Part shown: in pieces, positions 40,531 through 62,518 of the stretch
How positions within the stretch are numbered: position 1 is the stretch's first letter
How the letters are laid out: each line of letters opens with the position of its first letter
Assembly (NCBI RefSeq): GCF_022436485.1
Contig: NZ_JAKUDO010000001.1
Location: 434,001-498,000, forward strand
Length of the DNA: 64,000 nt
Reading direction: 5' to 3'
Origin: Agrococcus sp. ARC_14
GTDB taxonomy: Bacteria > Actinomycetota > Actinomycetes > Actinomycetales > Microbacteriaceae
The notes under the pieces: model-generated
What the model saw: only the letters and a program-made list of their open reading frames with translations
Database searches by the model: none
Told to the model about the DNA's origin: nothing
Program-made: the position numbers and the translations under genes

Positions 40531-40549
40531 GGACCGACTCTATCACTTT

Positions 40550-45209: not shown

Positions 45210-45306
45210 GAATCCGGCGCCAGGCGTGGGCGATTGACGCTTGCCGCAGCGCGCGCTCGGGGCGCAGGCTGTTCACCAATCCGACCCAGCAGCAGGGAGC
45301 ACGACT

Positions 45307-46701: not shown

Positions 46702-47084
46702 CGATCCGACGCATCGGGACGGTCGACGGGCTCGCTGCGCCCGTCGGCCCGTTCTCGCACGCCGTGGTCGCCGATGGCCTCGTCTTCACGAGCGGTCAGC
46801 TGCCCGTCGACGCCGACGGCACCCAGCCGCAGGGTTTCGAGGAGCAGGTGCAGGCGGCCATCGACAATCTGCGCCGCGTGCTCGAGGAGGCCGGCAGCGG
46901 CATCGAGCAGGTGCTGAGCGTGCGCACCTTCCTCACCGATCCCGCGCAGCTCGAGCCCTACAACCGCGTCTACCAGCGCACCTTCGGCGAGCATCCGCCC
47001 ACCCGCACCACGGTGTGCGCCACGCTCTGGGGCGTCTCGCTCGAGATCGACTGCATCGCGCGCGTGCGCGGCGAGGTGCGCTGA
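46698..47084 (+). CDS. RidA family enamine/imine deaminase
   Basis: A 128-residue YjgF/YER057c/UK114 protein. The core reads PVGPFSHAVVADGLVFTSGQLPVDADG, followed by EEQVQAAIDNLRRVLEEAGSG and PPTRTTVCATLWGVSLEIDCIA, in which the Arg of PTRTTV is the substrate-carboxylate residue of RidA. GTG 46698 overlaps the transporter stop; its own stop overlaps the RraA start (TGATG). In catabolic operons RidA proteins hydrolyse reactive imines or aminoacrylate-type intermediates. Confidence 0.92.
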   Translation: MTIRRIGTVDGLAAPVGPFSHAVVADGLVFTSGQLPVDADGTQPQGFEEQVQAAIDNLRRVLEEAGSGIEQVLSVRTFLTDPAQLEPYNRVYQRTFGEHPPTRTTVCATLWGVSLEIDCIARVRGEVR

Positions 47085-47716: not shown

Positions 47717-49337
47717 CCGACACCGACCGATCCGCCGGCCACCTCGTGGTCGCCCAGCTCGAGCGCGAGGGCGTCGAGCGCGTCTACTGCGTGCCGGGCG
47801 AGTCCTACCTCGATGTGCTCGACGGCCTCCACGACTCCTCGATCGACACGATCGTCACGCGCCACGAGGGCGGTGCCGGCTTCATGGCGCTCGCCGAGGG
47901 CCGCCTCACCGGCCGGGCCGGCGTGGCGCTCGTCACCCGCGGGCCCGGCGCAGCCAACGCATTCATCGCGGTGCACACCGCGCACCAGGACGCCACGCCG
48001 CTCGTGCTGCTGATCGGCCTCATCCCGATCGCCGATCGCGGCAGGGAGTCCTTCCAGGAGTTCGACATCACCGGCTGGTTCGGCAGGACCGCCAAGCAGG
48101 TCGTGACGCTCGACGACCCCACCGCTGCGGCGAGAGTGGTGGCGGATGCGATGCGCATCGCCGCGAGCGGACGTCCCGGTCCCGTCGTCATCGGCCTGCC
48201 GGAGGACGTCATCCGCGCTCGGCCGAGGGCGCCGACGTGCTCGAGCCGCGTCCTGCCGCAGCCGTCGAGCCCTCGGCGAGCGCGATGGCCGAGCTCGACG
48301 AGCGCCTCGGGCGCGCCGAGCGGCCGCTCGTGGTCGTGGGCGGCGAGGGCTGGACGGCCGAGGCCGGCCGCGCGCTGGTCGACTGGGCAGCGGCGCAGGG
48401 CGTGCCGGTCGCCGCGGACTTCCGGGCCTGGGACGCGGTGCCGCACGACAGCGCCGCCTACGTCGGCGCACTCGGCTACGGGCGCGCCGATGCGCTCGCC
48501 GCCCTCGTCGAGGACGCCGACCTGATCGTGCACATCGGCGCCCCGCGCACGGACGTGCTGAGCGACGGCTACCGGCTGGCGCAGCAGACCGAGACCGTCG
48601 TGATCATGACGGGCGAGCCGCTCGGGCACTCCGGCAGGCTCGACCAGCTCGTGGAGGCGGATCCTCGTGGCCTCGCCCGTGCGCTGCCCGACCCCCGTCA
48701 TGGCTTCGATCCCGCCCGGCTGCAGGCGGCGCGCGAGGCGCAGCTGCGCTTCTCGACACCGGTCGCGAGCGCCGAGGAGGGCGAGTACGTCGATTTGACG
48801 GCCGTCATGGCGGTGCTGCGCGAAGAGCTGACCGAGGATGCCGTGGTCACCTTCGGCGCCGGCAATCACGCCATCTGGCCCGCCCGCTACCTGCCGCACC
48901 ACGTGCCGGGCACGCTGCTCGCGCCCCGCAACGGCGCGATGGGGATGGGCATCCCCGCGGCCGTCGCCGCCGCACTGGTCGACCGCGAGCGCGAGGTCGT
49001 CTCGGTCGCCGGCGACGGCTGCTTCCTGATGAACGGCCAGGAGATCGCCACCGCCGTCGGCACGGGCGCCCGCTTCGTCGCGATCGTCGTCGACAACGGC
49101 GTCTACGCGACCATCCGCGAGCATCAGGAGCACCAGTACCCGGGGCGGCCATCCGGCACCCAGCTGACGAACCCCGACTTCGCGGCCTTCGCGCGCGCGT
49201 TCGGGGGCTTCGGCGCCACCGTCACCAACGCGGACGGCTTCCGCGAGGCCTACCGCGCCGCGCGGGCGAGCGGGCTGCCCGCCGTCCTGCACCTGCGCCA
49301 GGACCCATCCGTCCGCGCCCCGCGGACCGACGCGTGA
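47713..49337 (+). pseudogene. thiamine-pyrophosphate enzyme (acetolactate synthase-like), frameshifted
   Basis: A full-length TPP enzyme split by a frameshift. The first part, in the frame of ATG 47713, carries the PYR domain with the catalytic Glu in IVTRHEGGAGFMALAEG and runs to GPVVIGLPEDVIRA near 48219. The rest (AEGADVLEP... to the stop at 49337) continues in the -1 frame with the central domain and the PP domain GDGCFLMNGQEIATAVGTG...VVDNGVYATI. One missing base at about 48211-48222 would restore a single 541-residue protein. No slippery heptamer is visible, so this is either a recent mutation or a sequence error. In the intact form it would condense or decarboxylate 2-oxo acids. Confidence 0.82.
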
Positions 49338-49362
49338 ACCGATCGAACACCGAGGAGACGAG

Positions 49363-50658
49363 ATGACCACGCAGGATGCTCGCCCATCGAACGCACCGGG
49401 GCACGGGCTCGACGCCGGTCGGGCCGAGGCGTTCCTCGCCGACTTCGCCACCATGAGCGCGTTCGGCGCCACCGGCAACGGCGGCGTCGACCGGCAGGCC
49501 GCGACGCCGGCCGACATCGAGCAGCGCCGCTGGCTGCAGTCGTTGCTCGAGCAGCACGGCCTGCGCGTGGAGTACGACCGCATCGGCAACCAGTTCGGCC
49601 TGCTCGAGCTCGTGCCGGGCGCGCCCTACGTCGTCGTCGGCTCGCACATGGACTCCCAGCCGACCGCCGGCCGCTACGACGGCGCCTACGGTGTGCTCGC
49701 CGCGACGCACGCGATCGTCCGCATCGCCGAAGAGCTGCGCGAGACCGGCGAGCTGCCGCAGCACAACCTCGCGGTCGTCAACTGGTTCAACGAGGAGGGC
49801 TCGCGCTTCGTGCCCTCGATGATGGGTTCCTCGGTGTACACGGGCCTCATGCCGCTCGAGGCGGCGCTCGCGGTCACCGATCACGACGGCGTGAGCGTGC
49901 AGCAGGCGCTCGAGCCGACCGGATTCCTCGGCGACGGCGACGGCCCGGTCGCCGCCTGCTGCGCAGAGATCCACATCGAGCAGGGTCGCCTGCTCGAGGA
50001 TTCCGGCACGACCATCGGGCTCGTCACCGCCAGCTGGGCGGCGAGCAAGTACGTCGTCACGGTCGAGGGCGAGCAGTCGCACTCGGGGGCGACGGTCATG
50101 CCCGATCGCCGCGACGCGCTGCTGGGCGCCTCGATGCTCGTGGTGTTCGCGCGCGAGCTGGCCGATCGCTTCCCGGGCGTGCTGCACACCGCGGTCGGGC
50201 AGCTCGACGTCTATCCGAACTCACCCGTCGTCGTCGCCTCGCGCGTGCGGCTGCTGCTCGACCTGCGCTGCGCCGACGAGGCGGTGCTGGCCGAGGCGAA
50301 CGAGCTGCTGGCCGCCGAGATCGCACGCATCGAGGAGCGCGCCTCGGTGCGCCTCGAGCTGGAGCGCTCGCACGAGTGGGGCATCAACCCCTACCAGCCG
50401 GAGGGCGTCGCGCTCGCGCGCTCGATCGCCGAGCAGCTCGGCTACCCGCACGACGAGATCCTCACGGTGGCGGGCCACGACTCCATCAACATGAAGGAGA
50501 TCGTGCCGACCGTCATGCTCTTCGTGCCCTCCATCCAGGGCATCTCGCACAACGAGGGCGAGGAGACGCGCGACGACGATGCGCTCGCGGGGCTCGACGT
50601 GCTCACCGGCGTCGTGCGCCAGCTGGCGATGGGCGGGCTCGGCGCGAGCACCCGGTAG
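49363..50658 (+). CDS. M20 family amidohydrolase (N-carbamoylase/hydantoinase type)
   Basis: A 431-residue Zn-dependent hydrolase of the carbamoylase/allantoate amidohydrolase group. Metal and catalytic motifs are GSHMDSQPTAGRYDGAYGVLA (His, Asp), VNWFNEEGSRFVPSMMGS (Glu pair), AEIHIEQGRLLED and the C-terminal GHDSINMKEIVPTVMLFVPSIQGISHNEGE. It would hydrolyse a carbamoyl or ureido group or a linear amide, releasing ammonia and CO2 or an amino acid. GAGGAGACGAG precedes the ATG. It ends the operon; a strong 13-bp stem follows. Confidence 0.88.
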   Translation: MTTQDARPSNAPGHGLDAGRAEAFLADFATMSAFGATGNGGVDRQAATPADIEQRRWLQSLLEQHGLRVEYDRIGNQFGLLELVPGAPYVVVGSHMDSQPTAGRYDGAYGVLAATHAIVRIAEELRETGELPQHNLAVVNWFNEEGSRFVPSMMGSSVYTGLMPLEAALAVTDHDGVSVQQALEPTGFLGDGDGPVAACCAEIHIEQGRLLEDSGTTIGLVTASWAASKYVVTVEGEQSHSGATVMPDRRDALLGASMLVVFARELADRFPGVLHTAVGQLDVYPNSPVVVASRVRLLLDLRCADEAVLAEANELLAAEIARIEERASVRLELERSHEWGINPYQPEGVALARSIAEQLGYPHDEILTVAGHDSINMKEIVPTVMLFVPSIQGISHNEGEETRDDDALAGLDVLTGVVRQLAMGGLGASTR

Positions 50659-50662
50659 CCGG

Positions 50663-50697
50663 GCGGCCGCCGCGGAGCCCCACCCCGCGGCGGCCGC
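50663..50697 (+). terminator. 13-bp GC stem after the amidohydrolase
   Basis: GCGGCCGCCGCGG (50663-50675) pairs perfectly with CCGCGGCGGCCGC (50685-50697) around a nine-base loop, just after the stop at 50658. It closes the transporter-to-amidohydrolase operon. Confidence 0.75.
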
Positions 50698-50703
50698 TGC
50701 CCG

Positions 50704-50740
50704 CCGGATCGTTCCGTCACGCGGGAATCCGGCGTATCGT
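50704..50740 (+). promoter_or_regulatory. CGGATCGTTCCG operator-like site before the aldehyde dehydrogenase
   Basis: CGGATCGTTCCG at 50705-50716 is a 4-bp inverted repeat with a four-base centre, followed at 50731-50745 by the half-like GGCGTATCGTTCCCT. The site is identical over 15 bases to the one at 39792-39806. Further on, the 13-mer TAGCCCCCGTCCG occurs twice in tandem (50753-50778). Confidence 0.6.
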
Positions 50741-50797: not shown

Positions 50798-52165
50798 ATG
50801 GCCTACCGCTCCATCGACCCCAGCACGGGCGAGCTCATCGCCGAGCACGCCGACGCGACCGACGCCGAGATCGAGACCGTCCTGCAGGCCGCCGCCGACG
50901 CATCCGCCGCCCTGCCGAGCCTCGAGCAGCGCATTGCGGCGATGCGCGCGATCGCGCAGGCGTTCCGCGATCGCGAGGCCGAGCTGGCCGAGACGATCGC
51001 CCGCGAGATGGGCAAGCCGCTGCCCGAGGGTGTCGGCGAGGTGCGGCTGTCGGCGGCGATCTGGGAGTGGTACGCCGACCGGCCGGAGCTGCTCGGAAGC
51101 CGCGACATCGAGACCACCTGGCGCGGCCGCGAGGCACGTGTCGAGCTGCGCCCGATCGGGCCGCTCATCGGGGTCATGCCCTGGAACTTCCCGTACTACC
51201 AGGTGGCCCGCCTCGCGGCACCCAACCTGCTGCTCGGCAACCCCGTGATCATCAAGCACGCCGGCAGCTGCACGGGCGCGGCGCTCGCGATGCAGGAGAT
51301 CGCGGATGCGGCTGGCCTGCAGGCGGGTGTCTACCAGACGGTGCTGGCCACCAACGAGCAGATCGCGGGCATGATCGAGGATCCGCGGGTGCAGGGCGTC
51401 TCGCTCACCGGCAGCGAGCGGGCCGGTGCGGCCGTCGCGGAGGTCGCCGGCCGCGCGCTCAAGCGCTGCGTGCTCGAGCTGGGTGGCTCCGACCCCTTCA
51501 TCGTGCTCGGCACCGACGACCTCGACACACTCGTCGCGACGGCCATCGCGGCCCGCACCCGCAACGCCGGTCAGGCGTGCACCGCAGCCAAGCGCTTCAT
51601 CGTGCACGAGTCGCTGCACGACGCCTTCGTCGAGAAGCTCGTCGTCGGCATGGCGGCGCTGCGCATCGGCTCGCCCCTCGAGGAGGGCGTCGAGATGGGC
51701 CCGCTCTCGAGCGAGGCCGCCGCGGCACAGCTCGTCGGCCAGGTCGAGTCGGCCGTCGCCGAGGGCGCGACGCTCGTGGCGGGCGGGCGTCGCATCGACC
51801 GGCCGGGCGCGTTCGTCGAGCCCGGCGTGCTGACGGGCGTCGACCGGCGGATGCGCGTCTGGCACGAGGAGCTCTTCGGTCCGGTCGCGATCGTGGTGCC
51901 GGTGCGCGACGCGGCGGAGGCGGTCGAGGTGGCGAACGACTCGCCCTTCGGGCTGGGCGCGAACGTGTTCGACACCGATGAGGCGCAAGCCGAATGGGTG
52001 GCGCAGCGGCTCGAGGTCGGGATGGTCTCGATCGGCGCATTCGGCGTCTCGCGGCCCGAGCTGCCGTTCGGCGGCGTGAAGCGCAGCGGCTTCGGCCGCG
52101 AGCTCGGCCCCGACGCGGTGCTGGAGTTCGCGAACCGTCGGCTGGTGACGCAGCCGACCTCGTAG
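50798..52165 (+). CDS. NAD(P)+-dependent aldehyde dehydrogenase (succinate-semialdehyde type)
   Basis: A 455-residue ALDH. The coenzyme-binding strand PLIGVMPWNFPYYQVARLAAPNLLLGN, ELGGSDPFIVL (general-base Glu) and RNAGQACTAAKRFIV (nucleophilic Cys) are in order. The C-terminal FGVSRPELPFGGVKRSGFGRELG resembles the short succinate-semialdehyde dehydrogenases (GabD1/Sad class). GAGGAG lies six bases before the ATG. The gene stands alone between a terminator and two repeats, with an operator-like site upstream. Confidence 0.87.
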   Translation: MAYRSIDPSTGELIAEHADATDAEIETVLQAAADASAALPSLEQRIAAMRAIAQAFRDREAELAETIAREMGKPLPEGVGEVRLSAAIWEWYADRPELLGSRDIETTWRGREARVELRPIGPLIGVMPWNFPYYQVARLAAPNLLLGNPVIIKHAGSCTGAALAMQEIADAAGLQAGVYQTVLATNEQIAGMIEDPRVQGVSLTGSERAGAAVAEVAGRALKRCVLELGGSDPFIVLGTDDLDTLVATAIAARTRNAGQACTAAKRFIVHESLHDAFVEKLVVGMAALRIGSPLEEGVEMGPLSSEAAAAQLVGQVESAVAEGATLVAGGRRIDRPGAFVEPGVLTGVDRRMRVWHEELFGPVAIVVPVRDAAEAVEVANDSPFGLGANVFDTDEAQAEWVAQRLEVGMVSIGAFGVSRPELPFGGVKRSGFGRELGPDAVLEFANRRLVTQPTS

Positions 52166-52286: not shown

Positions 52287-53279
52287 TCACCGCCCGAGCG
52301 TCGACGCCCGGTAGCGCACCTCGATCGGCAGCGGCACGGATGCGTTCGGCTCGGCCTCGCCGCGGATGATCTGCACGAGCAGCTGCACGCACAGCGCCCC
52401 GGCCGCGCGCGGCGCGAGGTCGACTGCCGTCACCGGCGGGTCGGTGTAGGCGAGCGCCGGGCTGTCGACCATCGCGGCCACGAGCACGTCGTCGCCGACG
52501 ACGCGCCCGGCATCCTGCAGCACGTCGGCCACCACGATGGCCGAGCCGTCCGGGCCGCACAGGAAGGCATCCGTCTCCGGCCGCGCCGTGAGCACCTCGC
52601 GCGCCGCCTCGGCGTAGGCCGCGGAGTCGGAGCCGAAGGGCCGCTCCACGAGGGTCGGCGCGATCCCGTGCTCGCCGCACCACGCGCGGTAGACCTCCTG
52701 CGCGCGGGTGCCCCAGTCGGTGACGGCGGGGGAGGCGAGGAAGGCCGGCGCGGTGCTGCCGCGTGCGGCGAGGTGATCGAGCAGCGCGCGGATCGCGCCC
52801 TCGTGGTCGGCCGAGACGACACCGGTCGCCGCATCCCCGAGCGCCCGCTCGAGCGTGACGATCGGCAGGTCGAGCGCGAGCAGCCGGGTCGCCACCGGAT
52901 CGTCGGCCAGCGGGTCGAGCAGGATCACGCCGTCGACGCTCGGCGGCGCCTGATCGCCTGCGAGCCGTCGTGAGGTGATGACGGTCACGTCGACCTCGTC
53001 GAAGCCGGCCTGCTCGAGCGCGCCGTAGACGGTCTGCAGGTAGTAGTCGATGCGCGTCATGGCCTCCGGCAGGTGGAGACCGATCGTGCCGGTGGTCGCC
53101 GCCCGCAGCGATCGCGCCGCGGAGTTCGGGCGATAGCCGAGCTCGGCCGCGGCCTGCTCGACGGCCACGCGCGTGACCTCCGAGACCCGCCCGTGCCCGC
53201 GCAGCGCATCCGACGCCGTGGTGCGCGCCACGCCCGCGCGCTTGGCGACGTCGACGATGGTCGCGGCTCTCCTGCTCAT
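52287..53279 (-). CDS. LacI family transcriptional regulator
   Basis: A 330-residue regulator with HTH TIVDVAKRAGVARTTASDALRGHGRVSEVTR and hinge LGYRPNSAARSLRA. The ligand domain includes GTIGLHLPEAMTRIDYYLQTVYGAL, VDGVILLDPLADDPVATRLL, TDAFLCGPDGSAIVVADVL and PPVTAVDLAPRAAGALCVQLLVQII. It is divergent from the peptide ABC operon and next to the aldehyde dehydrogenase. Three CGGAWCGWTCCG-type loci in the window are plausible targets. Confidence 0.9.
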   Translation of the reverse strand: MSRRAATIVDVAKRAGVARTTASDALRGHGRVSEVTRVAVEQAAAELGYRPNSAARSLRAATTGTIGLHLPEAMTRIDYYLQTVYGALEQAGFDEVDVTVITSRRLAGDQAPPSVDGVILLDPLADDPVATRLLALDLPIVTLERALGDAATGVVSADHEGAIRALLDHLAARGSTAPAFLASPAVTDWGTRAQEVYRAWCGEHGIAPTLVERPFGSDSAAYAEAAREVLTARPETDAFLCGPDGSAIVVADVLQDAGRVVGDDVLVAAMVDSPALAYTDPPVTAVDLAPRAAGALCVQLLVQIIRGEAEPNASVPLPIEVRYRASTLGR

Positions 53280-53347
53280 CCCCGTTGTCTACCACGCCGC
53301 GCCCTGCATGGGCGGATCGATCCGGCATCCCTGCCCGCGCGGAATGT

Positions 53348-53449
53348 CACGATCGTGTGAAGTTCGGGCGGATGCGCGCCGTCGGCCTTGACCCGGATGC
53401 TCGGGCCGCGTAGATTCCGGGACATGCCGGAACGATCCGGCACGATCCG
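53348..53449. promoter_or_regulatory. operator cluster between LacI and the ABC operon
   Basis: CACGATCGTG at 53348-53357 is a perfect palindrome. At 53428-53439 CGGAACGATCCG and at 53438-53449 CGGCACGATCCG overlap by two bases, giving a tandem pair of the CGGA-N4-TCCG dyad about 50-70 bases before the substrate-binding protein start (53499). Confidence 0.65.
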
Positions 53450-53498: not shown

Positions 53499-55121
53499 GT
53501 GCGCACCACCTCAAGGATCACCGTCGCGGCCGCTGCCATCGCGGCGCTCGCCCTCACCGCCTGCACCGGGCCAGGATCGCCCGGAGGCACCGGGCAGCCC
53601 GAGGACCCGGGTCTGCCGGAGGGCTTCGCGGCGGTCGCCGACGAGTCGGTCGAGAGCGCGGGGGGCCCGCTGCACGTGCAGGTCGACTACGACACCGCAG
53701 AGGCGCAGGGGCTCGACCCCGCGTTCGCCGAGATCGCGCGCTCGTGGTCGATCATGGGACTCGTGGTCGAGTCGCTCGTCTCCGTCGGCCCAGGCTTCGA
53801 GATCGAGCCGGAGCTGGCCGCCTCGTGGGAGCAGCCCGACGACACCACCTACGTCTTCGACCTGCAGCCCGACGCAGTCTTCTCGAACGGCCGTGCCGTG
53901 TCGGCCGCCGACGTCGTCGGCTCGCTCAACCGTCTCAGGGAGTCGGGCTCGGTGTGGTCCGGCCAGCTGGGCCCGATCGCCGAGATCGCCGACACCTCCT
54001 CCGGCGACGCGCAGCAGGTCACCATCACGCTCGAGAGCCCGTTCACCCCGCTGCTCGCGGCGCTCGCCAACACGCCAGCCGGCATCCTGCCGATGCAGGA
54101 GATCGAGGCGGGCGAGCTCGATCCGACCGCAGAGCTGCTGGGCTCCGGCGCCTTCATCGTCGCCGATCACCGGCAGGACGAGTCGTGGTCGTTCGAGGCC
54201 AATCCCGAGTGGTGGAACGCCGAGCAGCTGGGCATCGACTCGCTCGAGCTGACGATCGCCGGCGACGACCAGACGCGCCTCGCGGGGCTCCGCGACGGCT
54301 CGACGCAGCTGGCGAACTTCTCCAACCCCGACGCGCTCGCCCTGCTCGGCAGCGCCCAGGGCGTGACGGCCGTGAGCCAGACGCAGAGCGACTTCTTCTA
54401 CGCGATGCTCAACTCCGTCAACCCCGACTCGCCCTTCGTCGACGAGGAGCTGCGCCAGACGGTGAACGCGGTGCTCGACCGCCAGGGGATCGTCGATCTC
54501 GCCCTCGCCGGCGCGGCGATGCCGACCGCGGTCACGCCCGCCAACCTGCCAGACGCGTGCACCGCCGACTCCGTGCCCTCCGCATCCGCGACGCCCGCGG
54601 CCGACGCGCTCGCGGGCCAGAGCATCTCGCTGCTGATCTACAACGACGACCCCTCGCTCACCGCGCTCGCGCAGGTCGTGCAGCAGCAGCTGCAGGGCGC
54701 AGGCGCTGAGGTCACGCTCGACAGCGTCGACTACGGCACCTACGCCGAGCGCGTCTACGTGGCGCAGCCGGGCGACTTCCAGATGGCGCTCGGCTGGTTC
54801 GCCGGCTACGGCGACCCCTCGATGGTGACGAACTGGTGGAACCCCGAGACCGCGTTCTTCAACGTGGGCTTCGTGCAGCCGCACGAGGATCTCTCTGCCG
54901 CCATCGCCGAGGCGCAGACGATGCCGGCGGGCGCCGAGCGCGCTGAGGCGCTGCAGACGGTCTGCGATCTCGCGGACACCTACTCCGAGATGGTGCCGCT
55001 CGCGACCCGCCCGCAGGTCGTCGGCATCCGCAGCGACCAGCTCTCGGCGTCGGTGCTCTCGGATGAGGGCTACGGCGACTTCCTGCGGCTGATCGCCGAG
55101 TTCAAGACGATCGAGGGCTGA
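53499..55121 (+). CDS. peptide-type ABC importer, substrate-binding lipoprotein (family 5)
   Basis: A 540-residue solute-binding lipoprotein. The signal peptide VRTTSRITVAAAAIAALALTAC ends in the lipobox with Cys22. A Gly/Pro linker follows, then the SBP_bac_5 fold: LVVESLVSVGPGFEIEPELAASWEQPDDTTYVFDLQPDAVFSNGRAVSAADVVGSLNRL is the family signature. A second lobe ends near PLATRPQVVGIRSDQLSAS. GTG 53499 has AGGAGG eight bases upstream; the frame to 53388 crosses the operators. It would capture peptides or other amides outside the membrane. Confidence 0.9.
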   Translation: MRTTSRITVAAAAIAALALTACTGPGSPGGTGQPEDPGLPEGFAAVADESVESAGGPLHVQVDYDTAEAQGLDPAFAEIARSWSIMGLVVESLVSVGPGFEIEPELAASWEQPDDTTYVFDLQPDAVFSNGRAVSAADVVGSLNRLRESGSVWSGQLGPIAEIADTSSGDAQQVTITLESPFTPLLAALANTPAGILPMQEIEAGELDPTAELLGSGAFIVADHRQDESWSFEANPEWWNAEQLGIDSLELTIAGDDQTRLAGLRDGSTQLANFSNPDALALLGSAQGVTAVSQTQSDFFYAMLNSVNPDSPFVDEELRQTVNAVLDRQGIVDLALAGAAMPTAVTPANLPDACTADSVPSASATPAADALAGQSISLLIYNDDPSLTALAQVVQQQLQGAGAEVTLDSVDYGTYAERVYVAQPGDFQMALGWFAGYGDPSMVTNWWNPETAFFNVGFVQPHEDLSAAIAEAQTMPAGAERAEALQTVCDLADTYSEMVPLATRPQVVGIRSDQLSASVLSDEGYGDFLRLIAEFKTIEG

Positions 55122-56086
55122 TGCTGACGCTGCGGTGGGTGGGCCGCCGGCTCCTGACGGGGCTGGTGACGCTCCTCGGCATCGCGCTGCTCGTCTTCTT
55201 CGCGGCGCGGCTGGTGCCGGGGCAGGCTGCCTCGGTGCTGCTGGGCCCGTTGGCGACCCAGGAGCAGCGCGATGCGCTCACCGCAGAGCTCGGCCTCGAT
55301 CGCGACCTGTTCACGCAGTTCGGGATCTGGATGGGCCAGATCGTCACCGGCGACTTCGGCGACTCGATCATCTCGGGCCAGCCGGTGCTCGACGAGATCG
55401 CGCTGCGGCTGCCGGTCACGGCGACCGTGGCGCTGCTGGCGCTCGGCATCGCGCTGCTGGTCGGCGTGCCGCTCGGCATCCTGCAGGCCGTGCGGTCGCG
55501 CCGACGCGGCGGTGCCGTGGTCTCGCGCATGATCAGCGGGCTCGGCATCTCGGTGCCGGAGTTCGTGCTCGGCGCGCTCGTGGTGCTGCTGTTCTCGACG
55601 GTGCCGCTCGGCATCACGATCGGCGCGTTCACGGCCGTCACCGACGACGTGTGGCTCGGGCTCGTCTCGAGCCTGCTGCCGGCGCTCGTGCTGTCGGTCT
55701 TCTGCGCCGCGGCGACCGCGCGCACCACCCGCGACGCCGTGCTCGGCGTGCTGGTCGAGCCGTGGATACAGGCGGCGGTCGGCCGGGGTGAGCGGCCGTG
55801 GTCGATCGTGCGGCACCACGTGCTGCGCAACGCATCCATCCCCATCCTCACGCTCGCGGCGACCCTGCTCGCCTACCTGCTGGGCGGCGCGGTGATCGTG
55901 GAGGGGCTCTTCAACGTGCCGGGCGTCGGTTCCTACATGCTGCTGGCGATGGATCGCCGCGACTACGCCGTGATCCAGGCGGCCGTCATGCTCGCCGCGG
56001 TGGTCTTCGTGGTGATGAGCGTGCTCGTCGAGCTCGCCTCCAGCCTCGTCGACCCGCGCGTCTCGACGATCGGAGCGACGCGGTGA
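55121..56086 (+). CDS. peptide-type ABC permease (DppB class)
   Basis: A 321-residue inner-membrane permease with the DppB N-terminus RRLLTGLVTLLGIALLVFFAARLVPGQ, the large periplasmic loop containing LGLDRDLFTQFGIWMGQIVTGDFGDSI, and the EAA-type loop around RHHVLRNASIPILTLAATLLAYLLGGAVIVEGLFNVPGVG. The ATG shares a base with the preceding stop. It forms the pore with the next gene product. Confidence 0.93.
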   Translation: MLTLRWVGRRLLTGLVTLLGIALLVFFAARLVPGQAASVLLGPLATQEQRDALTAELGLDRDLFTQFGIWMGQIVTGDFGDSIISGQPVLDEIALRLPVTATVALLALGIALLVGVPLGILQAVRSRRRGGAVVSRMISGLGISVPEFVLGALVVLLFSTVPLGITIGAFTAVTDDVWLGLVSSLLPALVLSVFCAAATARTTRDAVLGVLVEPWIQAAVGRGERPWSIVRHHVLRNASIPILTLAATLLAYLLGGAVIVEGLFNVPGVGSYMLLAMDRRDYAVIQAAVMLAAVVFVVMSVLVELASSLVDPRVSTIGATR

Positions 56087-56955
56087 CCGGCACCGCCGCC
56101 GCGCTCGCCGGCACGCCGGGCCGGCTTCGCAGCCTCCGCACGAGCGACCCCGTCATGACGATCGCGATCGTCATCCTCGGTCTGCTCGTGGCCGCGAGCC
56201 TCGCCGGGCGGCTCATCCCCGGCCTCAACGACGGCACCTCCACGGTCGGCGGCCGCTTCGAGGCGCCGAGCCTCGCGCATCCGCTCGGCACCGACAGCCT
56301 CGGCCGCAGCCTGCTCGCTCGACTGCTCGAGGGCATCGGCACGACCTTCCTGCTCTCGGCGGTCGCGGTGCTCTGCACCGCCGTCATCGCCACGGCGCTC
56401 GGCATCGTCGCCGCCTATGCCGGCGGCTGGGTGCGCGAGCTCGTGCAGCGGCTCGGCGACGTGCTCTACGCCTTCCCCGCCATCCTGCTGGCGCTGCTGG
56501 TCGCGGCCGCGATCGGCCCCGGCAGCACGGCGGCGCTCGCGAGCATCGTGCTCGTCACGGTGCCGCTCATGACCCGCATGGTGACCGCCGCGGCCGCCGA
56601 CGTCGCTCGCCGCGACTTCGTCACGAGCGCCAGGATCTCGGGCGTCGCCGCGCCCGTCATCATGGTGCGGCACCTGCTCACCTGTGTGAGCGGCACCGTG
56701 GTGGTGCAGGGCACGTACGCGCTCTCGGTCGCGATCCTGGTCGAGGGCGGGCTCTCCTTCCTCGGCTACGGCGTGCAGCTGCCCGCCTCCTCGCTCGGGC
56801 TGCTCGTGAGCGAGGGCAACGTCTACCTGCTCACCGCACCCTGGATCCTCATCGCCGCGGGCAGCACGATGGTGCTCGCCATCCTTGCGGTGACCCTCGT
56901 CGGCGACGCCCTGCGCGACCGGCTCGAGCCCAGAGAGGCGGTGGATCTCACGTGA
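56083..56955 (+). CDS. peptide-type ABC permease (DppC class)
   Basis: A 290-residue permease of the DppC type. The N-terminal helix VMTIAIVILGLLVAASLAG, then HPLGTDSLGRSLLARLLEGIGTTFLLS (family signature) and the EAA loop RRDFVTSARISGVAAPVIMVRHLL are clear. It ends in SLGLLVSEGNVYLLTAPWILIAAG. GTG 56083 overlaps the upstream stop (GTGA), and its own stop overlaps the next GTG. Confidence 0.93.
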   Translation: MTGTAAALAGTPGRLRSLRTSDPVMTIAIVILGLLVAASLAGRLIPGLNDGTSTVGGRFEAPSLAHPLGTDSLGRSLLARLLEGIGTTFLLSAVAVLCTAVIATALGIVAAYAGGWVRELVQRLGDVLYAFPAILLALLVAAAIGPGSTAALASIVLVTVPLMTRMVTAAAADVARRDFVTSARISGVAAPVIMVRHLLTCVSGTVVVQGTYALSVAILVEGGLSFLGYGVQLPASSLGLLVSEGNVYLLTAPWILIAAGSTMVLAILAVTLVGDALRDRLEPREAVDLT

Positions 56956-57812
56956 GCCTCATCGAGATCGACCGGCTGGTGGTCGAGTTCCGCACGCCGC
57001 GCGGGATCGTGCGCGCGCTCGACGGCGCGAGCCTGACCGCCGAGGCGGGCGAGCGCCTCGCCATCGTCGGCGAGTCCGGCAGCGGCAAGTCGACCGTGGG
57101 CGCCGCGATCGGCGCGCTGCTGCCCGCCAACGGCCGGTTCGGCGACGGCACCGTGCGCGTCGACGGCGTCGACGTCGGCGCCCTCGACCGGCCGGGACTG
57201 CGCAGGCTGCGCCGCGAGACGCTCGGCTTCATCCCGCAGGATCCGATCGCGACGCTCAACCCCACGATGCGCGTCGGCAGGCAGCTCGCGCTCGTCGTGC
57301 GCGATCTCGGCGGCGACACCTCCGGCGCGGCGCTCGCGCAGCTGCTCGAAGAGGTGCAGATCACCGATCCCGCCGACGTGCTGCGCCGCTTCCCGCACCA
57401 GCTCTCCGGCGGCATGGCGCAGCGCGTCGCGATCGCCATCGCGATGGTCCGCCGCCCGCGCATCCTCATCGCCGACGAGCCCACCGCGGCCCTCGACGCC
57501 AACGTGCGCCGCGAGGTGCTGAAGCTCGTCTTCGAGGCCGCGGAGCACAGCGGCGCCACCGTCGTCTGGCTCAGTCATGACCTGGATGCGGTGGCCAAGT
57601 GGTGCACGCGGGTCGCCGTGATGTATCGCGGCCAGATCGTCGAGGACGGACCGACGGCCGACGTGCTCGAGGACCCGACCCATCCGTACACCCGGTCGCT
57701 GCTCGCGGCGATGCCCTCGCGGCTGCAGCGCGGCGTCGAGGTGCGCACCTACACCGAGCTGCTCGCCGCGCAGCAGGTCGGCCGCGCGGCAGACGAGGAG
57801 TCGATCGCATGA
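56952..57812 (+). CDS. peptide-type ABC ATPase (DppD class)
   Basis: A 286-residue ATP-binding protein. Walker A is VGESGSGKST, Q-loop FIPQDPIATLNP, signature LSGGMAQR, Walker B ILIADEPTAALD, and H-loop WLSHDLDAVAKWC. The C-terminal DPTHPYTRSLLAAMPS is the oligopeptide-ATPase extension. GTG start overlapping the DppC stop. Confidence 0.94.
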   Translation: MSLIEIDRLVVEFRTPRGIVRALDGASLTAEAGERLAIVGESGSGKSTVGAAIGALLPANGRFGDGTVRVDGVDVGALDRPGLRRLRRETLGFIPQDPIATLNPTMRVGRQLALVVRDLGGDTSGAALAQLLEEVQITDPADVLRRFPHQLSGGMAQRVAIAIAMVRRPRILIADEPTAALDANVRREVLKLVFEAAEHSGATVVWLSHDLDAVAKWCTRVAVMYRGQIVEDGPTADVLEDPTHPYTRSLLAAMPSRLQRGVEVRTYTELLAAQQVGRAADEESIA

Positions 57813-58540
57813 GCCTGCTCGAGCTCGACGCCGTCACGGTGCGCTTCGGCCACGGCGCCCGCACCGTGCACGCCCTGCGCGAGGTGAGCCTCGCGGTCGA
57901 GGAGGGGCAGACGCTCGGCCTGGTCGGGGAGTCCGGCTCCGGCAAGTCGACCGCCGCCGCGGTCGCCCTGGGCCTGCGCGCGCCCGACGGCGGCGAGGTG
58001 CGCTTCGCCGGCGAGCCGCTGCGCCGTCGCCGCACCGCCGGCGAGATGCAGGCGGTGCTGCAGCACCCCATGTGGGCGCTGAACCCCCGCATGACGGTCG
58101 CGGCCTCCATCGCCGAGCCGCTCGCCGTGCGCACCCGGGATCGCACGGAGGTGCGCCGACGGGTCGCCGAGCTGCTCGAGCAGGTCTCGCTCGAGCCGGC
58201 CATCGCCGATCGCCGCCCGCACGAGCTCTCCGGCGGGCAGCGACAGCGCGTCGCCATCGCCCGCGCGCTCATCACGAGGCCGCGCTTCATCGTCTTCGAC
58301 GAGGCGGTCAGCGCGCTCGACGTCTCGGTGCAGGCGCAGGTGCTGCAGCTCGTGCGACGGCTGCAGGCCGAGCACGGCTTCGGCGCCCTCTTCATCTCGC
58401 ACGACCTCGCCGTCGTCCGCTACGTCGCCGACCGCATCTGCGTGATGCGGGCTGGCGAGGTGGTGGAGGACGCCCCGACCGACGCCTTCGTGGCCGGCCC
58501 CGCGCATCCGTACTCCCGATCCCTCTTGGAGGAGCTATGA
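57809..58540 (+). CDS. peptide-type ABC ATPase (DppF class)
   Basis: A 243-residue second ATPase: Walker A VGESGSGKST, Q-loop VLQHPMWALNPRM, signature ELSGGQRQRV, Walker B FIVFDEAVSALDVS, H-loop ISHDLAVVRYVADR. The end AGPAHPYSRSLLEEL lacks the usual long DppF tail. Start and stop overlap neighbouring genes by four bases, so the importer and the hydrolase genes that follow form one coupled operon. Confidence 0.93.
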   Translation: MSLLELDAVTVRFGHGARTVHALREVSLAVEEGQTLGLVGESGSGKSTAAAVALGLRAPDGGEVRFAGEPLRRRRTAGEMQAVLQHPMWALNPRMTVAASIAEPLAVRTRDRTEVRRRVAELLEQVSLEPAIADRRPHELSGGQRQRVAIARALITRPRFIVFDEAVSALDVSVQAQVLQLVRRLQAEHGFGALFISHDLAVVRYVADRICVMRAGEVVEDAPTDAFVAGPAHPYSRSLLEEL

Positions 58541-59583
58541 CCGCCTTCGCACCGCAGACGACCTGGGACGCCGAGCCGCGCCGCACGCCGCGCTCGAGCT
58601 TCGCCGGGCTGGCCGTCAACGCCGACGCGCCGCTGGAGCCCGTGCCGGGCACGGCCCGCGCGCAGGTCGCGTTCGACTTCCCGGGCGTCACGATCGGCAC
58701 CGCCGAGTATGCCGAGGGGCCGACGGGCGTCACCGTCATCGAGGTCGCGGGCGGCGCCCGCACGGCGATCGACGACCGCGGCGGCGCCGTCGGCATCGTC
58801 GGGCGCTACCCCTTCAACCACGCGATCGCGCTCGCGGGCGGCTCGGTGCACGGGCTCGCCGCCGCGAGCGGCGTGACGGATGCGCTCATGGAGCGCGAGG
58901 GCCGCAAGACCGGCTTCGCCGATCTGCAGGTCGTCTCGGGCGCCTGCATCTACGACTTCGCGGTGCGCGACAACGCGATCACGCCCGACAACGCGCTCGG
59001 CCGCGCCGCGCTGGCGGCCGCGGTCACCGGCACCGCCCCCGTCGGCCGGGTCGGCGCCGGCGTGGGCGGCAGCTGCGGCAAGACGCGCCCCGACGCCACC
59101 GAGTGGGCGGGGCAGGGCGTCGCCTTCCGGCAGGTGGGCGAGCTCAAGGTGCTCGCGCTCGTGGTCGTCAACGCGGTCGGCGCCGTCTTCGACCGCGACG
59201 GCAGCGTGCTGCGCGGCAACCTGCAGACCGACGGCACCCGACGGCATCCGGTCATCGACGGCGACGAGGCCTTCGGCGCGGCCGGGGGTGCCGAGCAGCC
59301 GGGCCCGGCCAAGGGCAACACCACGCTCTCGGTCGTGGTCACGAACGCGAGGCTGGCAGAGATCGACCTGCAGCAGCTGGCGACGCAGATCCACTCGTCG
59401 ATGCACCGCGGCATCCAGCCCTTCCACACCTCGCTCGACGGCGACACGCTCTTCCTGCTCACCACCGACGAGGTCGACCTGCCGGTCTACGACCCGCGCC
59501 AGGGGCTCGGCCCGAGCATCGCATCGTTCGGCGCGATCGCCTCCGAGACGATGTGGGACGCCATCATCGAGAGCGTGCGCTGA
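58537..59583 (+). CDS. P1 family (S58/DmpA, NylC-like) autoprocessing hydrolase
   Basis: A 348-residue N-terminal-nucleophile hydrolase. Motifs are YPFNHAIALAGGSVHGLAAASGVTDAL, GACIYDFAVRDNAITPDNALGRAAL, VGAGVGGSCGKTRPDA and, after an acidic Gly/Pro loop, KGNTTLSVVVTNARL. By analogy with NylC (6-aminohexanoate-oligomer hydrolase), self-cleavage is expected between Asn261 and Thr262, freeing Thr262 as nucleophile. Family members release N-terminal residues from small peptides, beta-amides or nylon oligomers. It is the first enzyme gene behind the importer, with start overlapping the ATPase stop (ATGA). Confidence 0.9.
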   Translation: MTAFAPQTTWDAEPRRTPRSSFAGLAVNADAPLEPVPGTARAQVAFDFPGVTIGTAEYAEGPTGVTVIEVAGGARTAIDDRGGAVGIVGRYPFNHAIALAGGSVHGLAAASGVTDALMEREGRKTGFADLQVVSGACIYDFAVRDNAITPDNALGRAALAAAVTGTAPVGRVGAGVGGSCGKTRPDATEWAGQGVAFRQVGELKVLALVVVNAVGAVFDRDGSVLRGNLQTDGTRRHPVIDGDEAFGAAGGAEQPGPAKGNTTLSVVVTNARLAEIDLQQLATQIHSSMHRGIQPFHTSLDGDTLFLLTTDEVDLPVYDPRQGLGPSIASFGAIASETMWDAIIESVR

Positions 59584-59584
59584 G

Positions 59585-60289
59585 GTGCACACCTATCCCA
59601 GCTATCACGCGCCGGACGGCCGGGCGATCGTCGACTTCGTCGCGCGCACGCCGTTCGCGCTGGCCGTGACCTCGCAGGCAGGCGCGCCGATCGCGACGCA
59701 CGTGCCGGTGGTGATCCCGCCGGCGCTCGACACCGCATCCGTCGACACCCTCGTCGGCACCACGCTCTGGTCGCACATGGGGCACGCCAACCGCCACTGG
59801 CGGCTGATGGAGGAGCAGCCGGAGGTGCTGCTCATCCACACCTCCTCGCACGGCTACGTCTCGCCGACGCTCTACCGCAAGGACCCATCGGTGCCGACGG
59901 TCGACTACACCGCCGTGCACCTCACGGGCACCGTGCGCCTCATGGACACCGACGACGAGGCGCTCGGGGTGGTCGAGCAGACCGTCCGCCAGCTCGAGGC
60001 CACGCGCGACCCGCAGTGGCAGATGGCGACCTCGCGCGAGGTCTTCCGCGCGATCATCCGCGGCGTCACCGCCTTCGCGATCGACATCACCAGCGAGCAG
60101 GCCGTCTTCAAGCTCAGCCAGGACAAGCCCGCCGACATCCGCGCCCGCGTCCGCGACGAGTTCGCGGGGGAGTCGTCGGCCGCCGGTGCGATCGGCGGCT
60201 GCCCGCATGCCGACCTGGCAGAGATCATGGATGCACTGCCCGTCGATCACGTGCGGCGTGGCCACTACCCACCGCTGGAGGATGCATGA
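59585..60289 (+). CDS. PaiB-like FMN-binding protein
   Basis: A 234-residue split-barrel FMN-binding protein of the PaiB family. The N-terminus VHTYPSYHAPDGRAIVDFVARTPFALAV, THVPVVIPP, TLWSHMGHANRHWR and VLLIHTSSHGYVSPTLY...VPTVDYTAVHLTGTVRLM are the PaiB sequence blocks. An uncommon Gly-Cys-Pro-His segment lies near the C-terminus. Annotated relatives are called negative regulators, but an oxidoreductase role is equally possible. GTG 59585 is one base after the P1 hydrolase stop; the stop overlaps the next ATG. Confidence 0.82.
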   Translation: MHTYPSYHAPDGRAIVDFVARTPFALAVTSQAGAPIATHVPVVIPPALDTASVDTLVGTTLWSHMGHANRHWRLMEEQPEVLLIHTSSHGYVSPTLYRKDPSVPTVDYTAVHLTGTVRLMDTDDEALGVVEQTVRQLEATRDPQWQMATSREVFRAIIRGVTAFAIDITSEQAVFKLSQDKPADIRARVRDEFAGESSAAGAIGGCPHADLAEIMDALPVDHVRRGHYPPLEDA

Positions 60290-61392
60290 GAGTCACAGAG
60301 CTGCGACTGACGGATGCCTCGGCGCACGCCCGCGGCGTCGCCTACGGCGCCGCGCTCGGCGGCGAGGTGCGGCACACGATCGGCCTCTACCGCGAGGCCT
60401 ACGAGCTGATGGGGGTGCCCGCCGACGTGATCGACGAGGTCGTCGCCGGCTCGCTCGATGCCGTGCGCGACTGGGCACCGACGCAGTGGGAGGAGCTCAC
60501 CGGGCTCGCGGAGGGCACCGGCGTGCGCCTCGACGAGCTGATGCTGCTGACCGCCCGCACCGAGATCCTGGCCCACGCGCCCGTCGACGTGCTCGAGTGC
60601 TCGACGGTGGTGGCGCTGCACGAGGATCGTCGCCCGCAGACGATGCAGACCTGGGACTGGCACGGCGAGCTGGCACCCACCGGCGTGCTGCTCGAGCTGC
60701 ACCTGCCGGGGGCCGATGGTGCCGGCCGGGTCGTGCGCACCTTCGCCGAGACCGGCATGGTCGGCAAGATCGGCGTGACCGCTGGCGCCGACGGCTCCGG
60801 CGGCCTGGGCGTGCACTTCAACATCCTCCATCACGCCTCCGACCGCACCGCGGTCGGTGTGCCCGTGCACGTCGTGATGCGGCGCATCCTCGACGAGGCA
60901 AGCAGCGTCGACGGAGCGATCGCGCTCGCCCGCTCGGCGACCGTCGGCGCCTCCACCGTGCTCACCGTCGTGCAGGGCGCGAGCGCGGGCGCCCCTGCGC
61001 GTGCCGCGAGCCTCGAGCTGGCACCGGCAGGCGTCGCCGTGGTCGAGGCGAAGGAGGGCTTCCTCGCCCACACGAACCACTTCCTCGACCCGCAGCTGGC
61101 CGAGGGCGAGGCCACGCTCGACTCCTCGACCACCGGCCCGCGCTTCGAGCACACGGTCGCGCAGCGTGCGTCGATCGAGGGCGCCACCGACGCGGTCTCC
61201 ATGGCGGCGGCGATGTGCGGCGAAGCGGGGGCGGATGCGCCGGTGTGTGTGCGCGTGCGGCCGGCGGCCTCGCTCGCGGAGCGCTGGGAGACGCTGCTCA
61301 CCGCGTCGCTCGACGTCGAGGCGGCCGCGATCGACTGGTTCGCCGGGCCGCCGAGCGGGCTCGACGCGAGCACCGTGCGCCGGTTCGGCTGA
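60286..61392 (+). CDS. C45 family amidase/acyltransferase, first copy
   Basis: A 368-residue protein of the acyl-CoA:6-aminopenicillanic-acid acyltransferase-like (C45, Ntn) family. The predicted nucleophile is Cys105 in DVLECSTVVA, followed by the family motif TWDWHGEL. A second block reads GLGVHFNILHH and the C-terminal block ends with FLAHTNHFLDP. Self-cleavage before the Cys would give alpha and beta chains. Members hydrolyse amide bonds of penicillins, ceramide-like compounds or acylated amino acids. It overlaps the PaiB-like gene (ATGA). Confidence 0.85.
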   Translation: MRVTELRLTDASAHARGVAYGAALGGEVRHTIGLYREAYELMGVPADVIDEVVAGSLDAVRDWAPTQWEELTGLAEGTGVRLDELMLLTARTEILAHAPVDVLECSTVVALHEDRRPQTMQTWDWHGELAPTGVLLELHLPGADGAGRVVRTFAETGMVGKIGVTAGADGSGGLGVHFNILHHASDRTAVGVPVHVVMRRILDEASSVDGAIALARSATVGASTVLTVVQGASAGAPARAASLELAPAGVAVVEAKEGFLAHTNHFLDPQLAEGEATLDSSTTGPRFEHTVAQRASIEGATDAVSMAAAMCGEAGADAPVCVRVRPAASLAERWETLLTASLDVEAAAIDWFAGPPSGLDASTVRRFG

Positions 61393-61420
61393 GGCGGCCG
61401 CTCATGGACCGGCTCGACTG

Positions 61421-62518
61421 ATGCGGGTGCTCGAGATCGCCGGCGCGACGCCGCGCGATCGCGGCATCGATCGCGGCAGGCAGGTGGCCGCGGTCGTGCG
61501 CGAGCACTGGCCCGTGCACCTCGGGCTGTTCGCGCTCGCGGGCTGGAGCGAGCAGGAGGTGCGCGAGCATGCACTGGCCTCGCTCGACGCGCTCGGTGCT
61601 TGGTGGCCCGATGGCCGCGACGAGATCCTGGGCGTCGCGGAGGGCGCAGGCGTCGAGCCCTGGATCGCCGCCGCCCTCGGCGCGCGCACCGAGCTGCTGG
61701 TGGCGAAGGGCGGTCCCGACGCGCACGCCGCCCGCGAGTGCACGATCCTGGCGACCGTCGCGCCCGCCGCTGCCGCGCAGGTGTGGGACTGGCATCGCGA
61801 GCTCGCCGACGCCTGGCACGCGCAGCAGGTGCGCGGTGGGCCGCTGGCGTTCGCTGGCATCACCGAGCACGGCATCGGCGCCAAGGTCGGCATGAACGAG
61901 GCGGGCGTCGGCGTGCTGCTGGCGATCCTGTCGCACACCGACGACCGACCGGGCGGCGTGCCCGTGCACTCGGTGCTGCACCGGGTGCTTGCGGAGGCGG
62001 AGACGGCGGATGCGGCGGTCGCGATCGCGGCGTCGGCGCCGGTGACGTCGTCGAGCGTGCTGACGATCGTGGGGCCGACGGCCGCCGGCGGCCGCACGGT
62101 CGTCGCGATCGAGCTGAGCCCCGCGGGCAGCGAGCGGGTGTCGCCAGAGCCCGACCGCGCCGGGCAGCAGTGGCTCCCGCGCACGAACCACTTCCTCTCG
62201 GAGCGGCTGGCTGCGGGTTCGCGCACCTTCCGCGGCGACCCCGACTCCGACGACCGGCTGCGGCTGCTGCGGGAACGCATCGACGCCCGTGCGGGCCTCG
62301 ATCCGGTGCGTGCCGCATCCGACCTCGTGCCGATGCTGCGCACCGCGCCCGGCGCCGAGCTCGGCGACATCTGCTGCGTCGCCCGCCCCGAGCAGCCCTT
62401 CGGACGCGCGTGGCAGACGCTCGCGACCGTCGCGATCGACGAGCGCGGCCTCACGATCACCGAGGGCTCGCCGCTGGAGCGCCCGCGCCCCGCGCTGCAC
62501 GTGCCCCTGCCGCGCTGA
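61421..62518 (+). CDS. C45 family amidase/acyltransferase, second copy
   Basis: A 365-residue paralogue of the preceding gene, 28 bases downstream. Matching blocks are AARECTILATVAP (nucleophile Cys), VWDWHREL, AKVGMNEAGVGVLLAILSH, GGVPVHSVLHRVLAEA, SSVLTIVG and WLPRTNHFLSE. The two differ widely outside these blocks, so the duplication is old or they came separately. The nucleophile is preceded by Glu in both copies. Its stop codon runs into a palindromic repeat; it ends the operon. Confidence 0.85.
   Translation: MRVLEIAGATPRDRGIDRGRQVAAVVREHWPVHLGLFALAGWSEQEVREHALASLDALGAWWPDGRDEILGVAEGAGVEPWIAAALGARTELLVAKGGPDAHAARECTILATVAPAAAAQVWDWHRELADAWHAQQVRGGPLAFAGITEHGIGAKVGMNEAGVGVLLAILSHTDDRPGGVPVHSVLHRVLAEAETADAAVAIAASAPVTSSSVLTIVGPTAAGGRTVVAIELSPAGSERVSPEPDRAGQQWLPRTNHFLSERLAAGSRTFRGDPDSDDRLRLLRERIDARAGLDPVRAASDLVPMLRTAPGAELGDICCVARPEQPFGRAWQTLATVAIDERGLTITEGSPLERPRPALHVPLPR

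Follow-up and report, generated by a model that had tools for sequence, protein, structure and literature searches.

What compound would be taken up and broken down by an operon that joins a transporter to three predicted self-cleaving amide hydrolases? This question is raised by nine genes of Agrococcus sp. ARC_14, which lie at 53499-62518 of the stretch analysed here (64,000 nucleotides of contig NZ_JAKUDO010000001.1, positions 434,001 to 498,000, hereafter the window). An earlier note on this DNA had proposed a dedicated system for importing and dismantling an amide-rich compound, and listed beta-lactam-like, N-acyl, D- or beta-peptide compounds and nylon-type oligomers as possible substrates. 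Here, we describe a predicted regulon that would tie the importer and a NylC-type hydrolase to catabolism of five-carbon (C5) acids in a soil actinobacterium, and this predicted link is the new element. On balance, we favour the view that the operon belongs to a catabolic regulon under LacI control, and that the imported compound is an oligoamide with a five-carbon amine of the cadaverine or 5-aminovalerate type.

Results

The operon and its predicted operator

All nine genes were found on the + strand, and both Pfam and NCBIfam upheld the families that the earlier note had assigned to them. The first encodes a family-5 solute-binding lipoprotein (SBP_bac_5, 184 bits in Pfam; 53499-55121, with a GTG start behind AGGAGG). 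It is followed by two ATP-binding cassette (ABC) permeases of the OppB/NikB (55121-56086) and OppC/NikC (56083-56955) types and two ABC ATPases of the OppD (56952-57812) and OppF/NikE (57809-58540) types. The remaining genes encode a P1 (S58) hydrolase of the NylC type (58537-59583), a PaiB-like flavin mononucleotide (FMN)-binding split-barrel protein (59585-60289; FMN_bind_2, 127 bits in Pfam), and two C45 amidases/acyltransferases of the N-terminal nucleophile (Ntn) class, C45a (60286-61392) and C45b (61421-62518). Six of the eight junctions overlap by 1 or 4 nt and the P1/PaiB junction has a 1-nt gap; the description of all eight as overlapping or nearly so suits these and is slightly generous for the 28-nt gap between C45a and C45b.

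A gene for a LacI-family regulator (52287-53279, - strand; Pfam and NCBIfam) is divergent from the operon, and its relatives also adjoin the operon elsewhere. Beside it we found the palindrome TGCCGGAWCGWTCCGGCA, which is found again ahead of the operon in four families and varies, A or T, at two inner positions. The copy between lacI and the operon, TGCCGGAACGATCCGGCA at 53425-53442, lies in the operon promoter region and matches perfectly, being the source of the pattern. Three further predicted operators were present in the window: one just upstream of lacI (53310-53327, 2 mismatches), one 78 bp before an aldehyde dehydrogenase (ALDH) gene (50702-50719, 2 mismatches), and one 10 bp before the called start of a CaiB-type CoA-transferase gene (39790-39807, 1 mismatch). 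Four sites at up to 3 mismatches, a count that includes the 53425 site by construction, compare with 0.15 expected, and none of 100 shuffles reached four. In the whole 3.27-Mb genome, five sites were found at ≤2 mismatches, four of them on the predicted regulon and the fifth inside an unrelated predicted gene. The operator shared within this one genome is our main argument, and we therefore read the operon in terms of C5 compounds: importer, hydrolases and C5-acid genes would form one predicted regulon.

The CaiB and ALDH genes are 10.9 kb apart in the window (39823-50702). In A. baldri (locus L003) and in two further genomes (G384, locus L149; G332, locus L150), a single operator sits between the divergent CaiB and ALDH genes. 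A stretch of about 29 bp containing the operator stands at both ends of the 10.9-kb interval, so each half retains a site. Relative to these three loci the interval is an insertion, in which GntR, major facilitator superfamily (MFS), HpcH-like aldolase, dehydrogenase, RidA, RraA-like and thiamine pyrophosphate (TPP) enzyme genes were recognised by eye and an M20 amidohydrolase by Pfam. A frameshift seems to divide the gene of the TPP-dependent enzyme (47713-49337), as its reading frames 47713-48525 and 48285-49337 overlap.

The P1 operon in other actinobacteria

P1 relatives were found in 9 of 398 genomes of the window's family (E ≤ 1e-20), in 8 of 394 genomes of a class sample, own genome counted (1e-40), in 10 of 200 genomes of family f24 (1e-60; two already found), and in 4 of 22 genomes of family f27 (1e-60; none new). 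Other P1 queries gave 7 matches among 120 relatives of genome G854 (one new) and 5 among 101 relatives of genome G491 (four new). Together with A. baldri and Nonomuraea gerenzanensis (L093), the 30 loci found by search, window included, make 32 actinobacterial P1 loci, spanning five families (f1, f24, f27, f42 and f61) plus the two named records. This set excludes L004, which shares its contig with L066, loci with C45 only, and two proteobacterial loci, L094 with an importer and L095 without. Neighbours were counted up to 12 kb from P1 inside the fetched stretch (often 9-10 kb per side; less at the contig ends in L102 and L125), with each neighbour family checked on single members.

A family-5 ABC importer accompanies P1 in 27 of the 32 loci, none of the 27 in f42, a C45 gene in 23 and PaiB in 17; C45 adjoins P1 in all nine P1 genomes of the window's family (window, L066-L073). 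The gene order is thus not private to one genome, and the proposal of a dedicated import-and-dismantle system for amides was right in outline, the system being conserved beside family-5 importers in other actinobacteria. The operon is patchy, occurring in 9 of 398 family genomes and in 3 of the 10 genus genomes of that sample. Other neighbours are a copper amine oxidase (12/32), CaiB (8/32), glutaryl-CoA dehydrogenase (GCDH; 6/32) and a GABA (gamma-aminobutyrate)-transaminase-like gene (3/32, all three with copper amine oxidase as well); iron-siderophore uptake genes occur in five loci and a MOSC fusion in four.

Allowing ≤1 mismatch, 20 of the 32 loci have the operator ahead of the operon. 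When 30 genomes were searched, such a site occurred in 18 of 27 P1 carriers and in none of three non-carriers, while a reversed control gave 0/30. The background was 12 of 288 relatives of genome G028 (reversed control, 1/288), among which only G028 and G100, both P1 carriers, had perfect sites. Two-mismatch matches elsewhere in larger genomes are probably due to chance. A one-mismatch site in G028 was discounted, as it falls between convergent reading frames.

Several related arrangements were also noted. In two Agrococcus-genus genomes with no P1 match (G049, L076; G223, L075), C45a lies about 0.1 and 0.8 kb from a GCDH relative, and the C45a copy of G049 has an open reading frame. A second way of pairing importer and C45 is seen in other genomes of the window's family (L077-L082, L084), where LacI and a more distant family-5 importer are accompanied by a single C45b-like gene and P1 is absent. 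The importer-P1 pairing also has a proteobacterial version: a Variovorax boronicumulans plasmid (L094, 3546-12499) carries P1, an ABC importer, a second P1 and an M81 metallopeptidase. In L128 (genome G794), several importer genes and the P1 match fall in shifted frames, so that operon looks broken or misassembled.

Predicted C5-acid genes in the window and in relatives

Besides lacI and the predicted operators, two groups outside 53499-62518 look functionally connected: the CaiB-GCDH pair (37366-39779) and the ALDH gene. The CaiB-type CoA-transferase (38520-39779, - strand) has succinate-glutarate CoA-transferase as its best model and is 49% identical to the CaiB of L087. The GCDH-like acyl-CoA dehydrogenase (37366-38523, - strand) shares 60% identity with the GCDH of L087, and the best match of the latter among solved structures is glutaryl-CoA dehydrogenase 3sf6 (632 bits); like the L087 and L092 proteins, the window's protein keeps the Arg of DSG(I/L)R and the Glu of YEGT, which we take to be the carboxylate-binding and the catalytic residue, respectively. 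The ALDH (50798-52165, + strand) is of the semialdehyde-dehydrogenase type, and its gene adjoins CaiB-GCDH and the operator in L149 and L150. All three are predicted members of the regulon.

In other lineages, similar families stand beside the operon itself. The copper amine oxidase heads the operon in 11 loci and is divergent from it in the twelfth (L106); the L087 protein matches PF01179 with 526 bits and reaches the NCBIfam cut-off of the primary-amine oxidase subfamily. Six of these loci also carry glutaryl-CoA dehydrogenase, a CaiB transferase and an aldehyde dehydrogenase nearby, the best model of the L087 CaiB being succinate-glutarate CoA-transferase, under its NCBIfam cut-off. L088, L089 and L092 add a class-III aminotransferase, which passes the GABA-transaminase cut-off in L092 (596 against 506.65); the truncated call in L088 scores 482 and stays below it. 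Six loci had such a gene and these three were counted, L107, L108 and L128 being set aside at 31-32% identity. By family, the amine oxidase, aminotransferase, ALDH, CaiB and GCDH of the relatives are the predicted steps from cadaverine or 5-aminovalerate to glutaryl-CoA. Given the regulon and the loci with amine oxidase or GABA transaminase, the imported amide therefore most likely yields a C5 amine or C5 amino acid, which is then converted to glutaryl-CoA.

The hydrolases and the importer

The P1 protein exceeds its Pfam family cut-off (Peptidase_S58, 73.5 bits against 23.9) and is a close relative of NylC (5xyg, 365 bits; 171 of 309 alignment columns identical). Its Y139, K182, N212, D301 and D303 occupy the columns of Y146, K189, N219, D306 and D308, presumably the catalytic residues of NylC. 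The self-cleavage site predicted in the earlier note, Asn261/Thr262, aligns with Asn266/Thr267, given as the NylC cleavage site in PMC6021441. The match to ThnT, another P1 member, is weak (48 bits).

C45a and C45b are 33% identical to each other, and both exceed the C45 cut-off of 85 (NF040521; 196 and 173 bits). Cys105 of C45a and Cys107 of C45b, the predicted nucleophiles, share a column with Cys103 of IAT (acyl-CoA:6-aminopenicillanic acid, or 6-APA, acyltransferase), which we take to be the nucleophile of that enzyme. Similarity to the solved acyltransferase 2x1d is weak (45 and 42 bits), and the two C45 genes of the operon are the only PF03417 matches in this genome. The three hydrolases would thus belong to two unrelated Ntn folds, and the earlier assignment is right by family. 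Inspection by eye revealed no signal peptide in P1, C45a or C45b, from which we infer a cytoplasmic site of action, following import.

In the importer, the solute-binding protein scored 103 bits against a cut-off of 600 for an NCBIfam model with a named substrate, its NCBIfam and PDB matches being too weak for naming a ligand, and the permeases and ATPases stayed under the cut-off of every NCBIfam model listed (for the ATPases, the best 25 of 186-187 each). Since the importer proteins fall under all the cut-offs listed, "peptide-type", as the importer had been called, holds as a label for the Opp/Dpp/Nik-like class and names no substrate.

Siderophore genes, iron control and plasmid neighbourhoods

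Some P1 loci carry genes that hint at siderophores. In L109, one strand encodes a MOSC fusion, LacI, a NylB relative (199 bits to 6-aminohexanoate-dimer hydrolase), C45 and P1. The divergent group encodes two FecCD-like permeases (35 and 44% identical to those of L091, which match PF01032), an ATPase, an iron-compound-binding protein and a second NylB relative (161 bits). For the binding protein the best solved match is 4hmo, which we take to be the ferrichrome-binding protein PiaA. The interval between the two gene groups contains operator-like sites at 2 and 3 mismatches. Five loci have iron-siderophore uptake genes beside P1, and operator-like sites accompany them in L109 alone. In the other four (L091, L124, L125 and L126, all of one genus), P1 faces a LacI of its own without this operator, and we give them little weight. 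None of the window's four operator sites has siderophore genes.

In genome G028, a PepSY_TM gene some 43 kb away from the operon is preceded by two predicted operators, one perfect and one with 2 mismatches. Its product has 66 relatives, and the names given to them, where there are any, are PepSY, hypothetical protein or iron-regulated membrane protein. FoxB, reported as a ferrioxamine reductase, is one of the PepSY_TM proteins (PMC10866019, PMC12424826), and another member serves copper enzymes (PMC13038864); because of the latter, and as a single genome is involved, the G028 gene is not decisive. A fused MOSC-ferredoxin-reductase protein is divergent from the operon in L070, L073 (by similarity alone) and L090. 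MOSC proteins of the mARC/YcbX kind reduce N-hydroxylated compounds. PaiB occurs in none of the four MOSC loci and in 17 of the 28 others, a replacement pattern that is confounded by kinship. No match to the MOSC fusion was found among plasmid records at E 1e-40.

We then scanned 14 sequences for IdeR-type boxes, using the IdeR consensus, at least 15 of 19 positions and no shuffle control. No box was present in the window or in eight importer-type loci (L066, L068, L070, L073, L086, L087, L092 and L093). Boxes of 17/19 lie near the siderophore genes of L091, L124, L125 and L126, and boxes of 18 and 16 of 19 lie in L109, far from P1. As the importer-type loci scanned had no such box, the P1 operon looks LacI-controlled rather than iron-controlled.

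On plasmids, C45 stands near amine genes in two of three further records examined (38 have a match): near a primary-amine oxidase on an Agrobacterium plasmid, and near agmatinase-like and PotF-like genes, recognised by eye, on a Burkholderia plasmid. A Streptomyces plasmid record has C45 without amine genes nearby. Two Shinella NylB relatives (67 records matched) lie up to about 10 kb from agmatinase or arginase-family genes. Overall, C45 or NylB lies near amine or polyamine genes in four of five further plasmid records, all four proteobacterial. On Agrobacterium fabrum pAtl-11a (L164, 2081-10068), genes for an APC permease, a primary-amine oxidase and MFS-C45 were seen within 8 kb.

Discussion

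In the model that we favour, the lipoprotein and ABC transporter would import the intact compound. The NylC-like enzyme, once cleaved at its predicted Asn261/Thr262 site, would cut internal aliphatic amides in the cytoplasm; the two C45 enzymes, with their predicted Cys nucleophiles, would cut the other acyl-N bonds, and the PaiB-like flavoprotein may carry out some redox step. The freed amine would be oxidised, in relatives by copper amine oxidase with or without GABA transaminase, and the semialdehyde-type dehydrogenase, CoA-transferase and GCDH-like enzyme would pass the C5 acid towards crotonyl-CoA. The sequences themselves show the gene families, their conservation and the operator-like sites, whereas we infer the binding of LacI, the substrate and the order of steps. 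Of the substrates first suggested, a nylon-type oligomer comes chemically closest, because the regulon adds a CoA-transferase/GCDH-like pair and a semialdehyde-type dehydrogenase, and relatives add amine oxidase and GABA transaminase; beta-lactams, D-peptides and generic beta-peptides find no support among the neighbours examined.

A number of observations weigh against this model. LacI binding at the palindrome is a prediction from sequence only, and the operator at 1 mismatch is absent in 12 of the 32 P1 loci; C45 is absent in nine, two of those cut by contig ends. The window's C5-acid proteins fall short of the named enzymes: CaiB scores 296 bits against a cut-off of 750 for its best model (NF052585), the GCDH-like protein scores 173 against 470 for NCBIfam glutaryl-CoA dehydrogenase, its third-best model after two other than glutaryl-CoA dehydrogenase, and the ALDH is also well under its equivalog cut-off. 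The ALDH is only 36% and 26% identical to the operon-adjoining ALDHs of L087 and L092, so these are not orthologues. A GCDH relative occurs in all 24 genus genomes (two at 42% identity only), and seven of the ten also searched for P1 are without it, which makes GCDH by itself an unspecific marker. In Agrococcus the operator was seen at no amine oxidase or transaminase gene, although the strain's own genome was not searched for one. Furthermore, the L087 amine oxidase is nearest to phenylethylamine oxidase (798 bits), which makes an aromatic amine possible, and L107, L108 and L128, which lack C45, have a kinase-like (APH-like) gene together with a different class-III aminotransferase (that of L107 of the PRK06149 type, 799 bits against 973), genes that may point to an amino-alcohol substrate. 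As the accessory genes of L107, L108 and L128 differ, like those of L068 and L069, the substrate may vary between lineages.

Within the C5 model, we tentatively name a desferrioxamine-type siderophore, chemically near an N-hydroxylated nylon 5,4, as the leading natural substrate, while conceding that this may well be wrong. Desferrioxamines are oligoamides of N-hydroxycadaverine and succinate. Such hydroxamates would enter through the operon's importer; the Thr-Ntn enzyme would act on their secondary amides, and the Cys-Ntn enzymes on their hydroxamate or terminal acyl bonds. The N-hydroxyl group would be stripped by a flavoprotein or by a MOSC-type reductase, and cadaverine would be burned via glutaryl-CoA. 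It is equally a conjecture, and one we hold with some reserve, that dismantling siderophores is the natural task of NylC-type nylon hydrolases and of NylB relatives such as those in L109. The missing IdeR-type boxes at P1 operons argue somewhat against the siderophore version, and the plasmid neighbours are in line with release of an amine and not with a siderophore. No work joining nylon hydrolases to siderophores was found in the open-access literature by title or abstract start, nor, on the same basis, was any on these enzymes among papers on Agrococcus and nylon; no open-access paper on C45 operons was found.

The substrate might instead be a plain acylated C5 diamine or omega-amino acid, such as an N-acyl-cadaverine, a plant phenolamide, or a lysine-derived or nylon-like oligomer, with no N-hydroxyl group and no part for iron. 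This is a serious possibility that we nonetheless hold at less than even: neither the ALDH, CaiB and GCDH regulon nor the amine oxidase requires a hydroxamate, and the plasmid C45 and NylB relatives near amine, agmatinase or arginase-family genes fit it, yet it leaves unexplained the MOSC fusions in 4 of 32 loci, the iron-siderophore uptake genes in 5 of 32 and the PepSY_TM gene of G028. An N-acylated aromatic or heterocyclic amine of the phenylethylamine, tyramine or histamine type, from which the amine oxidase would make an aryl aldehyde, with the glutarate genes incidental or serving another product, appears improbable. The amine oxidase similarity in L087 speaks for it, as do a StyA-like monooxygenase after C45a in L068 and L069 (Pfam Smoa_sbd, under the NCBIfam StyA cut-off) and a flavin reductase near it in L068; but in the window the operator connects the operon with the CaiB-GCDH pair and the semialdehyde-type ALDH, L088, L089 and L092 have GCDH and a GABA-transaminase-like gene next to the operon, and the highest-scoring solved relative of P1, NylC, is an aliphatic polyamide hydrolase. 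Dismantling of beta-lactam-like, D- or beta-peptide compounds is very improbable, and as no neighbouring gene supported them we gave up the beta-lactam and D-peptide readings: PF03417 is named for acyl-CoA:6-APA acyltransferase and the P1 family includes ThnT, but the scores to 2x1d and ThnT are low, and no gene for such catabolism was noticed at the operator sites or among labelled neighbours, where amine oxidase and glutarate genes stand instead.

The C5 model narrows the substrate to a testable chemical class through a conserved predicted regulon, and hints at the role of nylon-type enzymes in nature. NylC-type enzymes are studied for polyamide recycling, with no natural role given in the portions of the literature covered; some thirty loci now show NylC relatives in a physiological context, in which an operator and an inducer can be sought. 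If the siderophore version is true, desferrioxamine catabolism would gain candidate genes from the regulon, and nylonases a natural substrate.

Comparison with known systems

The operon resembles Opp/Dpp/Nik-type ABC importers in its set of one SBP_bac_5 protein, two permeases and two ATPases, and differs in that its proteins miss the cut-off of every NCBIfam model listed. The C45 proteins pass the family cut-off (NF040521) and have Cys at the IAT Cys103 column, as in 2x1d, from which they differ by Glu instead of Gly before the Cys, by low similarity and by forming two distinct tandem copies.

The bacteria cited as desferrioxamine degraders are reportedly a Spirillum-like bacterium and Azospirillum irakense, not actinobacteria. 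Desferrioxamine B catabolism shares amide hydrolysis with the system proposed here: PMC11800396 and PMC12364333 report bacteria that hydrolyse the amide bonds of desferrioxamine and use the siderophore as carbon (and nitrogen) source. The reported substrate is the apo form; according to one of the two the ferric form is spared, and the other calls such processes intracellular. The difference is that the passages covered name no gene for it.

The P1 protein keeps the Asn/Thr site and the Y, K, N, D and D residues of NylC, the 6-aminohexanoate oligomer endohydrolase (5xyg, 3axg). NylC is known from the degradation of nylon oligomers, whereas P1 is the sixth gene of an ABC-importer operon that sits in a predicted LacI regulon with glutarate-type genes. 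As for the route from cadaverine or 5-aminovalerate to glutarate, which we take to run through GabT, a semialdehyde dehydrogenase, a CoA-transferase and glutaryl-CoA dehydrogenase, all four families adjoin the operon in L088, L089 and L092, and three of the four stand at operator sites of the window. Unlike in that route, the ALDHs of the lineages are not orthologues, and the predicted operator joins the C5 genes to an amide importer and Ntn hydrolases.

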